A stretch of DNA of 64,000 nucleotides from Roseburia sp. (GTDB taxonomy: Bacteria; Bacillota; Clostridia; Oscillospirales; Ruminococcaceae), in the NCBI GenBank assembly GCA_023666265.1, contig JAMPCH010000006.1, positions 1 through 64,000 of the forward strand. Direction: 5' to 3'. The stretch's first letter is position 1. Every line of letters begins with the position of its first letter. Shown in pieces: positions 28,416 to 34,152 of the stretch. The notes beneath the pieces were generated by a model. It was not told where the DNA came from, searched no databases, and worked only from the letters and a program-made list of their open reading frames with translations. The position numbers and the translations under genes were made by a program.

Positions 28416-30002
28416 ATGCCAGAACTACAAAAAGTAGCGATATATTGTCGCTTATCCGAGGAAGATCGAAACAAATTAAACCATAACGACGATAGCGAGA
28501 GTATCAAGAACCAAAAGATCATGCTCACGCAATACGCTAATAACCACGATTGGATGATTTATGACATCTATTCCGACGATGATTTTACAGGGTCGGACAG
28601 AAACCGCCCGGACTTCAATCGGCTACTACGCGACGCGGAAGCGGGACAATTCAATATTGTGCTATGTAAAACACAAAGCCGCTTTACCCGAGAATTAGAG
28701 ATGGTCGAAAAGTACATTCACTACCTGTTCCCTTTATGGGGCATTCGCTTTGTCAGCATTGTCGACAATGCTGATACTGATATAAAAGGGAATAAAAAAT
28801 CCCGCCAAATTAACGGACTGGTGAATGAATGGTATTTGGAGGATATGTCCGAAAACATTAAGGCGGTCTTAACAAATCGGCGAAAGAACGGGTTATTCAT
28901 AGGCGCGTTTGCTCCTTATGGATATAAAAAAGATCCGAACCGTAAAGGTCATCTTATCGTTGACGACGAAGCCGCTCAAATTGTAAGGCGTATTTTTCGG
29001 CTTTATACCTCCGGCATAGGTTGTTCATCGATCGCGAGAATTTTAAATAGTGAAGGGATCTTGACCCCCGCCGAGTACAAAAATCAAAACGGTTTGGAGT
29101 ATAAAAATCAGCACTACAAGAGCCAACCGATGTGGAGATACTACAGTATCAACCGTATTATCTCCGATGAAGTGTACATCGGAAATCTTGTTCAAAACAA
29201 AGCACACAGTATTTCCTATAAAACGAAGATCGTAAAGCCTACGGATAAGTCTGAATGGATTCGGGTAGAAAATATGCACGAACCGATCATAGATCTCAAT
29301 ACATGGAATACCGTGCGTAAACTTGTTGCGGATCGAGCCGTTCACAGCACAAGTCGTAAAAATGATGGAAGCTATCGTGACTGTAATGTGTTTAGCCGAA
29401 AATTGATATGTAGCCATTGCGGCGGACTGATGAAAATGACGAAAACTTCCACGGGCATCTATTATCGATGCGGTACACGGTTTTACGACAAGGAAAGATG
29501 CTCCGGTAGTTTTATCAGCTGTAAGCCATTGTACAAGTCGGTCTTGGCGGAGTTTCAAAACCATATATCCCAATATGCGTTAGTCGATGAAATTTCTTCG
29601 CAGATCCAAATTAAGAATCACTATGAGCAAGACTTAAACGCGCAAAAGTCGATCTTATCAAGGTTGAAGAAGAAGTATAGCGAAGCCATGAATGCCAACA
29701 AAAAGCTATATGTCGATAAGGTGAATGGGATCATTACGGACGAAATCTACATAGATATGTCGCAGTCGTTTCGATCCGACATAGAAAAATACGGAAAGGA
29801 AATCGAACGAACCCAAGCGACTATGTCACGGATTGAATCCGAAATGAGTGACATCAAGAGCAAGGTCGAGATCGCAAAAGAATATTTGGACTGTAAAGAA
29901 TTAACTTTTGCAATGGTGCAAATGTTTGTGGAAAAAATCATAGTCCACCCATCCGTTCCGTATAAGAGAGAAATCAATATCGAAATATTTTGGAATTTTT
30001 AA
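28416..30002 (+). CDS. Large serine recombinase (integrase)
   Basis: 528 residues. Catalytic domain with the nucleophile Ser in AIYCRLSEEDRN, followed by DDFTGSDRNRPDFNRLLRDA and the Arg-rich KTQSRFTREL; then a Recombinase domain (APYGYKKDPNRKGHLIVDDE, YYSINRIISDEVYIGNL), a zinc ribbon (CSHCGG with YYRCGTR and RCSG), and a coiled coil (about 390-480). Such enzymes integrate phages and ICEs at a single site. It is the last gene before the interrupted catalase gene, as expected for the integrase next to the attachment site. It has its own consensus promoter and a GGAGG start. Confidence 0.95.
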   Translation: MPELQKVAIYCRLSEEDRNKLNHNDDSESIKNQKIMLTQYANNHDWMIYDIYSDDDFTGSDRNRPDFNRLLRDAEAGQFNIVLCKTQSRFTRELEMVEKYIHYLFPLWGIRFVSIVDNADTDIKGNKKSRQINGLVNEWYLEDMSENIKAVLTNRRKNGLFIGAFAPYGYKKDPNRKGHLIVDDEAAQIVRRIFRLYTSGIGCSSIARILNSEGILTPAEYKNQNGLEYKNQHYKSQPMWRYYSINRIISDEVYIGNLVQNKAHSISYKTKIVKPTDKSEWIRVENMHEPIIDLNTWNTVRKLVADRAVHSTSRKNDGSYRDCNVFSRKLICSHCGGLMKMTKTSTGIYYRCGTRFYDKERCSGSFISCKPLYKSVLAEFQNHISQYALVDEISSQIQIKNHYEQDLNAQKSILSRLKKKYSEAMNANKKLYVDKVNGIITDEIYIDMSQSFRSDIEKYGKEIERTQATMSRIESEMSDIKSKVEIAKEYLDCKELTFAMVQMFVEKIIVHPSVPYKREINIEIFWNF

Positions 30003-30376: not shown

Positions 30377-30748
30377 TTATTTTGTCTCTAAAAATTTAGC
30401 GAGCTTTTTGTCAAACGTACATATTTCATAACCGTAAACCGAGTGATAACCGATGAGAAGGCAGTCGGCAAAATCGAGAAATTTTTCTCCGTATATTTTC
30501 AGAGCCGCTTTGAGGACTTCCGGCTCGTTCGGGCTGATATTCTCAATGTCAAGAATTTCCAAAACAGCTTCCGCAAGCTCTTTTCGGTCGATCTTATAGA
30601 CCTTATTTAAGACGTATACGACCTCCGCCGCGATCTCATTGAGAACTATGCATTTTTCCGAGCGAACCGCGGATTTGGCTCGTTCAAACAAAGCCTCATC
30701 GTCGCGAAGGATGATCCGCAAAATAATGTTCGCGTCAATAACTCTCAT
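30377..30748 (-). CDS. PIN-domain toxin (VapC-like)
   Basis: 123 residues with the PIN pattern: MRVIDANIILRIILRDDEA (first Asp), NEIAAEVVYVLNKVY (conserved Glu), KFLDFADCLLIGYH (Asp pair) and CTFDKKLAKF. These acidic residues bind Mg for RNase activity. It overlaps the 3' end of the upstream antitoxin gene by 14 bases, the usual antitoxin-toxin order. It is the first complete host-side gene after the element boundary. Confidence 0.88.
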   Translation of the reverse strand: MRVIDANIILRIILRDDEALFERAKSAVRSEKCIVLNEIAAEVVYVLNKVYKIDRKELAEAVLEILDIENISPNEPEVLKAALKIYGEKFLDFADCLLIGYHSVYGYEICTFDKKLAKFLETK

Positions 30749-30983
30749 TTCCCGACACGCTCCTCATTTCTTCCGTGTAATTTTCAACAGCCGCATTCGC
30801 CCAAGCATCTTTTTCAAGCGGGATAAGCTCGGGGTTTGCGTATTTATGCAACCTACCCGCTATATCGTCGACAGATGCCTTTTTGGGGTGTGGTTCGTCG
30901 CGTTTTAAAACGACGATCAAAGCCTCCATTTGCTCCTCCGTCATTTTGTCGATGATCAAATTCAGCCTTTCTCTAATGCTCAT
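30735..30983 (-). CDS. Antitoxin partner of the PIN toxin
   Basis: 82 residues (MSIRERLNLIIDKMTEEQME, then LVVLKRDEPHPKKASVDDIA-like text). The N-terminal half is a helical segment found in several PIN-associated antitoxins; the C-terminal part (HKYANPELIPLEKDAWANAA) probably wraps the toxin. It overlaps the toxin gene. Autoregulation is expected from type II systems, but no operator was identified. Confidence 0.75.
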   Translation of the reverse strand: MSIRERLNLIIDKMTEEQMEALIVVLKRDEPHPKKASVDDIAGRLHKYANPELIPLEKDAWANAAVENYTEEMRSVSGNESY

Positions 30984-32691: not shown

Positions 32692-32720
32692 TTGACTCCC
32701 CGCCCCAAATATGTTATAAT
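32692..32720 (+). promoter_or_regulatory. Promoter at the start of the 159-bp repeat array
   Basis: TTGACT (32692-32697), 17-bp spacer, TATAAT (32715-32720). The -35 lies outside the repeat, so only the first unit has a full promoter; units 2 and 3 and the gene at 33283 have only the TATAAT. Confidence 0.7.
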
Positions 32721-33187
32721 AAAACCGGGCGGAAACCCGCATGCGGGTTTCTTGGCGGCTAACGCCGCCGCCGGCTGTACGCCGACCGCCCTTTTTATTG
32801 AAACATAAACCCCTTTTTGCTTCGCAAAAACGCCGCTGGCGCGGCTACGCGCCTACGACGCTCGGGTTTATGTTATAATAAAACCGGGCGGAAACCCGCA
32901 TGCGGGTTTCTTGGCGGCTAACGCCGCCGCCGGCTGTACGCCGACCGCCCTTTTTATTGAAACATAAACCTTTTTTTGCTTCGCAAAAACGCCGCTGACG
33001 CGGCTACGCGCCTACGGCGCTCGGGTTTATGTTATAATAAAACCGGGCGAAAACCCGCGCGCGGGTTTCTTGGCGGCTAACGCCGCCGCCGGCTGTACGC
33101 CGACCGCCCTTTTTATTGAAACATAAACCCCTTTTTGCTTCGCAAAAACGCCGCTGACGCGGCTACGCGCCTACGATGCTCGGGTTT
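32711..33187 (+). repeat. Three tandem 159-bp direct repeats with nested palindromes
   Basis: Units begin at 32711, 32870 and 33029, and a fourth start at 33188. Copies differ at only a few bases. Each holds two branched palindromes. The first (unit 1: 32727-32791) is closed by GGGCGG/CCGCCC and carries three hairpins. The second is closed by AACATAAACCC and GGGTTTATGTT and contains TTTTTGC-TTC-GCAAAAA and GCCGC-TGGC-GCGGC. TATAAT follows the second in every unit. No protein frame explains the conservation. Confidence 0.9.
32721..32797 (+). ncRNA. Predicted four-way-junction RNA, unit 1 (also 32880-32956 and 33039-33115)
   Basis: Closing stem 32727-32732 with 32786-32791; hairpin 1 AAACCCGC/GCGGGTTT (32733-32750); hairpin 2 GGCGGC-TAAC-GCCGCC (32754-32769); hairpin 3 CGGC-TGTAC-GCCG (32772-32784); then TTTTT. 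The overall shape recalls a small cloverleaf ending in a terminator. In unit 3 the hairpin-1 centre changes from AT to CG yet stays symmetric. Expression is not shown by sequence. Confidence 0.5.
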
Positions 33188-33282
33188 ATGTTATAATATC
33201 TATACCGACCCGATCACACACCCGGATCGGAAGGGTCGAATTTGCGGCGGTCAACGATCTGTTTGGATAGGAGGAACGGTTT

Positions 33283-34152
33283 ATGAAAGCAAAGGTTTAT
33301 TTTTCGCGGGAGATCACGCCCGAGAAGGTCGTCGAGCTTTACCGCCTATGCGGGAGGGGGCTCCCCGGTAAGGTCGCGGTCAAGGTCCATTCGGGGGAGG
33401 AGGGAAATCAAAATTTCCTTCGCCCCGATTTTTGGAAGCCCATGGTCGAGCGGGTACACGGGACGGTCGTGGAATGTAACACGGCTTACGACGGGGCGCG
33501 TAACGTAACGCCGAAGCACATCGAGCTTCTCCGAAAGCACGGCTGGAGCGCGTATTTCGACGTCGACCTGTTGGACGCGGAGGGACCCGATCTCGAGCTC
33601 GCGATCCCGAACGGTCATCGGATCAAGAAGAATTTCATCGGAAAAAACACGGCGAATTACGACTCCATGCTCGTCCTCTCTCATTTTAAGGGACACCCCA
33701 TGGGAGGCTTTGGCGGGGCGATCAAACAGCTCTCGATCGGGGTCGCCTCCTCCTACGGTAAAAAATATATCCACGGCGCGGGCAGTACGGATAACTACTT
33801 CGCGACGGAACAGGATAAGTTCCTCGAATCGATGGCGGACGCGGCGAGCTCGGTGGTGGACTATTTTAAGGGAAATACGGTCTTTATCAACGTGATGAAA
33901 AATCTCTCGGTCGACTGCGACTGTTGCGCGGTGGCTGAGGATCCGTGTATGAAGGATATCGGGATCTTGGCGTCGCTCGACCCGATCGCGATCGATCGGG
34001 CATGCCTCGACCTGATCTACGCCTCAAAGGATCGGGGGCGCGATCACTTTATCGAGCGCGTCGAGTCGCGTAACGGCGCGCATACCTTAGACGCCGCCGC
34101 CGAGCTGGGCTTTGGCGGTCTCGAGTACGAGCTGACGGAGGTCGGAGTATGA
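33283..34152 (+). CDS. DUF362 domain protein
   Basis: 289 residues: VAVKVHSGEEGNQNFLRPDF near the start, LLDAEGPDLELAIPNGHRIK, VLSHFKGHPMGGFGGAIKQL, SVDCDCCAVAEDPCMKDIGI and DPIAIDRACLDLIY. These features define DUF362, often a ferredoxin-linked protein of unknown reaction; the ferredoxin-type CxxCxxC cluster is absent here, but a CDCC..C group is present. GGAGGAA precedes the ATG. Its transcript leader is the end of the repeat array. It overlaps the following lipoprotein gene by 4 bases. Confidence 0.85.
   Translation: MKAKVYFSREITPEKVVELYRLCGRGLPGKVAVKVHSGEEGNQNFLRPDFWKPMVERVHGTVVECNTAYDGARNVTPKHIELLRKHGWSAYFDVDLLDAEGPDLELAIPNGHRIKKNFIGKNTANYDSMLVLSHFKGHPMGGFGGAIKQLSIGVASSYGKKYIHGAGSTDNYFATEQDKFLESMADAASSVVDYFKGNTVFINVMKNLSVDCDCCAVAEDPCMKDIGILASLDPIAIDRACLDLIYASKDRGRDHFIERVESRNGAHTLDAAAELGFGGLEYELTEVGV

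Follow-up and report, generated by a model that had tools for sequence, protein, structure and literature searches.

Three tandem units of 159 bp in the window, by which we mean the whole stretch of 64,000 nucleotides analysed here, are quite probably copies of a non-autonomous mobile element that is recognised by its structure, targets the -10 boxes of promoters and regenerates such a box when it inserts. On this reading, the element would consist of two branched palindromes joined by ATTG(A), with a 3' end that is itself an extended -10 box.

Results

Tandem Repeats Finder and a repeat search placed three tandem copies with a period of 159 bp at 32710-33198, the second and third being 98 and 97% identical to the first, which bears out the near-identical units reported in a first-pass annotation of this DNA. 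The unit boundary is best drawn directly after TATAAT, and three units then fill 32721-33197. The features of the array are the following:

32692-32720, + strand: target promoter from the promoter scan, with -35 TTGACT (32692-32697), a 17-bp spacer containing TGT and -10 TATAAT (32715-32720)
32721-32879, + strand: element copy 1, 159 bp, beginning at the base that follows the host TATAAT and closing with the TATAAT of its right end
32727-32791, + strand: module 1 of copy 1, a predicted four-way junction with closing stem GGGCGG/CCGCCC and three hairpins
32792-32796, + strand: T run of copy 1, after module 1
32797-32801, + strand: central linker ATTGA of copy 1, in which ATTG is predicted to pair with the ATAAT region of the right end
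32802-32874, + strand: module 2 of copy 1, a branched palindrome closed by AACATAAACCC/GGGTTTATGTT in the predicted fold
32867-32879, + strand: right end of copy 1, TTTATGTTATAAT, the element-borne extended -10, from the aligned right ends
32880-33038, + strand: element copy 2, with module 1 at 32886-32950, T run at 32951-32955 and module 2 at 32961-33033
33039-33197, + strand: element copy 3, with module 1 at 33045-33109 and module 2 at 33120-33192
33192-33197, + strand: right-end TATAAT of copy 3, the final -10 ahead of the gene
33283-34152, + strand: gene for a DUF362 protein (PF04015, E 1e-45), a bystander 3' of the array

The earlier description of the units as non-coding, each with a closing stem, three hairpins and TTTTT followed by a second branched palindrome, agrees with our analysis: only short ORFs cross the three units, and a single unit folds at -78.4 kcal/mol, compared with -53.2 +/- 3.9 kcal/mol for dinucleotide shuffles (z = -6.45). 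In the predicted fold, the closing stem and three hairpins of module 1 precede TTTTT, and in module 2 the AACATAAACCC/GGGTTTATGTT stem closes off two or three hairpins ahead of ATAAT. The claim of a single full promoter, situated ahead of unit 1, is borne out by the -35/-10 scan, in which the extended -10 of the element lacks a good -35, but it passes over the fact that every unit in the window terminates in an extended -10, TATGTTATAAT. Searched against Rfam, the element matched no family at the gathering score. Elsewhere in the window, a large serine recombinase gene (PF00239, PF07508) occupies 28416-30002, and 400 bp beyond it a PIN-domain gene with a small upstream partner (30377-30983) probably constitutes a toxin-antitoxin pair.

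The source genome (2.8 Mb in 98 contigs, 99.8% complete) contains about 14 copies of the element on 9 contigs. The full-length ones are 90-98% identical, those at C47b, C55 and C41 are deleted or diverged, and a tandem pair is present on contig C10 in addition to the window array. The units of one array resemble one another most, which counts against serial insertion as the sole origin of arrays, and local duplication therefore looks like a contributor. The 79 relatives searched, of which 47 belong to the same genus, yielded no copy, an absence that rests on different species and not on same-species empty alleles. Plasmid and phage collections gave no match to the element, scans of viral contigs returned chance-type matches or nothing, and the exact motif was present in 0 of 390 other genomes sampled from the class. 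The genes downstream of the copies are unrelated (DUF362 and, as named by reading, aspartate carbamoyltransferase-like, Fic-like and TauE-like), and there is therefore no functional theme among them; the link to a DUF362 operon drawn in the first-pass annotation found no backing, as nothing specific to DUF362 emerged. A second intergenic repeat was seen in passing: CATTCCGNAAGTTCCCGAGGAGGTCTA and its relatives stand ahead of several genes of the source genome (L010, L157, L161, L163), and the stretch upstream of pyrB (query positions 1313-1400) recurs with 75-90% identity in many genomes of the same genus.

Analogous families were sought in the genome collection with the pattern AACATAAA-N45-75-TTTATGTTATAAT. 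The first scan mostly returned AT-rich hits that were attributable to chance and were discarded on the basis of fold and context; a minority were rich in GC, were folded and had a second folded module and TATAAT ahead of them, and these came from uncultured Ruminococcus, Oscillospiraceae and other Clostridia, in whose genomes further copies were recovered by similarity, independently of the scan pattern. Two loci that fit the pattern (L017 and L086) were set aside because apparent transposase genes, judged by reading, follow them. A common plan, TATAAT - module 1 - ATTG - module 2 - TATAAT, is found at promoters in at least eight other Clostridia, with sequences that differ: ATTG is kept in most families and reads ATTT in two, module 1 varies by family (AACCTC.../GAGAACATT, AAACG.../CGTTTATTG or GTTTTCACG.../CGTGAAACCATTGA), the hairpins of module 2 vary as well, and the T run is absent from most. 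Such motifs were rare in the genomes sampled: besides the 0 of 390 for the exact motif of the source genome, the AACCTC motif occurred in 1 of 398 genomes from the phylum. That genome (G070), a member of the same order, has 57 matches, and its arrays comprise six to seven units with a length of 90 or about 124 bp. Many internal right ends in this genome have drifted from TATAAT (to TTGAAT or AATAAT), and regeneration of the -10 is therefore not universal; a seven-unit array of about 124-bp units (L362, C22:36728-37520) has internal right ends TATGATTGAAT and not TATGTTATAAT. In a further genome (G467), neighbouring units differ in the type of module 1, which points to serial insertion or exchange in its arrays. 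Another (G465; L282, L283) has single module-1-like palindromes, perhaps half-elements, in inverted orientation right after the TATAAT of -35/-10 promoters and with no second -10.

The folded structure of the element appears to be under selection. The first-pass annotation had rightly noticed a base change that keeps a hairpin symmetric, and among 12 copies of the source genome three base pairs carry changes on both sides. Between families, the module 2 stem near the right -10 covaries (AACA/TGTT, ATCA/TGAT, ACCA/TGGT), with three further paired changes in L262 and two in the C55 copy, and module 1 of G070 alternates between AAAATC/GATTTT and GGAAGC/GCTTCC. Members found by the pattern were pre-selected to pair at AACATAAA/TTTATGTT, and only other members count there. 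Ten modules from other families gave fold z values of -2.8 to -7.2. Many hairpins have loops of three bases, in module 1 often GAA or AAA on the top strand and in module 2 often TTC (GAA on the bottom strand), an uncounted impression, as though each module worked on a different strand.

Such a structure could also belong to a conserved regulatory RNA or to serial terminators, the units being 5'-UTR attenuators that meter the gene and have been multiplied for dosage. The strength of the predicted fold, the compensatory changes that keep its stems and the T run behind the module 1 stem in all aligned copies of the source genome are what such an RNA would show. However, several observations argue against it: (i) the downstream genes are unrelated; (ii) pyrB and the C47b gene have orthologues in the genus, taken from other species in a comparison that is not allelic, whose promoters are plain TATAAT ones, most of them with TGn, and free of the element; (iii) the T run is missing from most analogous families, so that neither termination nor a small RNA can account for the design in general; and (iv) no Rfam family reached the gathering score. 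We therefore regard this explanation as improbable and a terminator or sRNA role as secondary at most. Among the roles offered by the first-pass annotation (small RNA gene, serial terminators or palindromic mobile repeat), it is the third that accords with dispersal to different promoters and absence from relatives.

The target of the proposed mobile element is the extended -10. At all 10 aligned sites in the source genome the left boundary falls at TATAAT, and TGn stands ahead of it at 9; by comparison, 205 kb of the same genome contain 148 other TATAAT sites, of which only 32 have TGn. The typical left flank has a -35-like hexamer, 16-18 bp and TGnTATAAT, and the element starts at the next base; its right end is GGGTTTATGTTATAAT or a close variant, after which the 5' region of an unrelated gene continues in the same orientation. 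Across these sites the right ends are constant (TATGTTATAAT or one change) against unrelated flanks. A -35 with at least 4 of 6 matches is present at 8 of the 10 sites (p 3e-6 versus other positions in the same flanks) and one with at least 5 of 6 at 7 (p 1e-10); since 11 of the 32 background TGn-TATAAT sites also reach 5 of 6 or better, the -35 excess partly follows from TGn alone. TGn was found at 31 of 37 sites pooled from several genomes and at 19 of 26 sites in G070, where -35 enrichment is weak.

One copy gives a close view of the state before insertion. On C38, the element splits an operator that reads TTTCTGCATAT-ATTGTGATATAAT-element-ATATGCAGAAA, and an intact twin just upstream reads TTTCTGCATAT-AATTCTAAGAAAA-ATATGCAGAAA, likewise with a 13-nt centre, so that the expected operator is recovered exactly once the element is cut out after TATAAT. 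The bases before the left TATAAT differ among C38, C88, C47a and C7, those before the right one are constant, and the hexamers themselves can differ, as at L216 (host TATAAC, right end TATAAT as in the element consensus) and L270 (left TATAAC). Judged from these flanks, the right -10 belongs to the element, and joining takes place within or just after the hexamer. The target duplications that the first-pass annotation had associated with transposon ends are not visible, since left and right hexamers can differ.

These junctions also bear on whether the units are integron-like cassettes, in which attC-type folded sites would be recombined at -10 boxes by a tyrosine recombinase. A folded palindrome with conserved ends and a variable interior, head-to-tail arrays without duplication and 12 tyrosine recombinase (PF00589) matches in the source genome would all suit such cassettes. 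On the other hand, the right end GTTATAA departs from RYYYAAC/GTTRRRY, the left TATAAT is preceded by variable bases (TGA, TGG, TAG) against a constant right end, which places the crossover elsewhere than at G/TT, and the recombinases beside copies (C38, C10) resemble by appearance ordinary ICE/phage integrases; we consider this reading unlikely. A MITE derived from a cut-and-paste (DDE) transposon, its 6-bp target duplication being TATAAT by chance, is less likely still, for although TATAAT flanks most copies on both sides, the ends are not inverted repeats of each other, the hexamers at L216 and L270 depart from a duplication and the site is nearly always one hexamer beside TGn.

Discussion

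The structure-recognised mobile element that we favour can be pictured as follows. HUH single-strand transposases and tyrosine recombinases acting on folded sites yield a single orientation, a short fixed target, no duplication, folded ends, a target-like right end and arrays. We infer an enzyme of similar action, like the HUH (IS200/IS605-like) transposases or folded-site tyrosine recombinases, which would recognise the folded single-stranded ends and join them on the 3' side of the -10 hexamer, perhaps by exploiting the -10 region that is single-stranded in the open promoter complex. Insertion would be site-specific, in one orientation and directly 3' of the -10 hexamer of TGnTATAAT, and would leave the host -10 adjoining module 1 and the -10 of the element adjoining the gene. 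Since the element supplies a -10, the box would be retained and a new target created, which would explain the head-to-tail arrays. RNA from the host -10 would start at the foot of module 1 and, in the source genome, end at the T run, the gene then being expressed from the extended -10 of the element. If transposition proceeds through a circle, the expected junction is TATGTTATAAT-AAAACCGGGCGG.

It counts against a mobile element that neither a mobilising enzyme nor an autonomous copy was found in the source genome and the analogue genomes, the partial matches examined there all being truncations or tandem parts. The Y1 transposase domain (PF01797) has no match in the source genome and has matches in 4 of 7 analogue genomes. 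Y1 proteins of G467 and G468 were rejected as partners, being weak, RAYT-like matches amid other palindromes; those at L291 (G467) and L290 (G468) have about 165 aa and lie among GTAGGG-type repeats, a different family.

It is conceivable, and we put it forward tentatively, that these elements form an undescribed class of single-strand elements, in which, within open complexes, the enzyme attaches the folded element to the 3' side of the -10 hexamer on the non-template strand and the element brings its own extended -10. A literature search found mobile promoters and REP/RAYT families and no element of such a plan, which, given its incomplete coverage, gives weak grounds for calling it new. A promoter hit by mobile DNA usually suffers damage; the elements proposed here would aim at the most conserved promoter hexamer and supply a replacement, and could thereby rearrange transcription starts throughout Clostridia and yet escape selection. 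If the open-complex reading is true, they could spread through promoters and burden the host little. Given the strict target (TGnTATAAT), the fold in two modules and the arrays, a question arises that can be tested directly: which enzyme recognises a folded strand together with a -10 box, and is RNA polymerase needed?

Among known systems, IS200/IS605 elements, their palindromic derivatives and REP/RAYT sequences are likewise small, non-coding, hairpin-ended and often arrayed, and insert 3' of a short fixed sequence without target duplication, a feature found here too. They are recognised through their end hairpins; for the present element, with its folded modules and compensatory changes, such recognition is predicted. 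The present case differs from them in that the source genome lacks Y1, insertion is at a -10 hexamer with a further -10 forming the right end, each module is branched and the pairing partner of the right end sits between the modules. Mobile promoters were reportedly defined by Matus-Garcia, Nijveen and van Passel in 2012, and by van Passel et al. in 2014, through similarity of upstream regions. They too are repeated promoter sequences ahead of unrelated genes, whereas here a defined structured element would enter the -10 of an existing promoter and bring a replacement. This work on mobile promoters is cited in PMC8049555 and PMC9208149. Integron attC cassettes, including those inserted at attG sites, share a folded single-stranded site, conserved ends, a variable interior and head-to-tail arrays, but the core-site consensus and crossover position do not fit, and no integron integrase was identified among the PF00589 matches examined. 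BOX, RUP and Correia-type elements are short structured intergenic repeats, some with promoter parts, and we know of no strict -10 target of this kind among them; from their descriptions, the present element is set apart by its lack of terminal inverted repeats.
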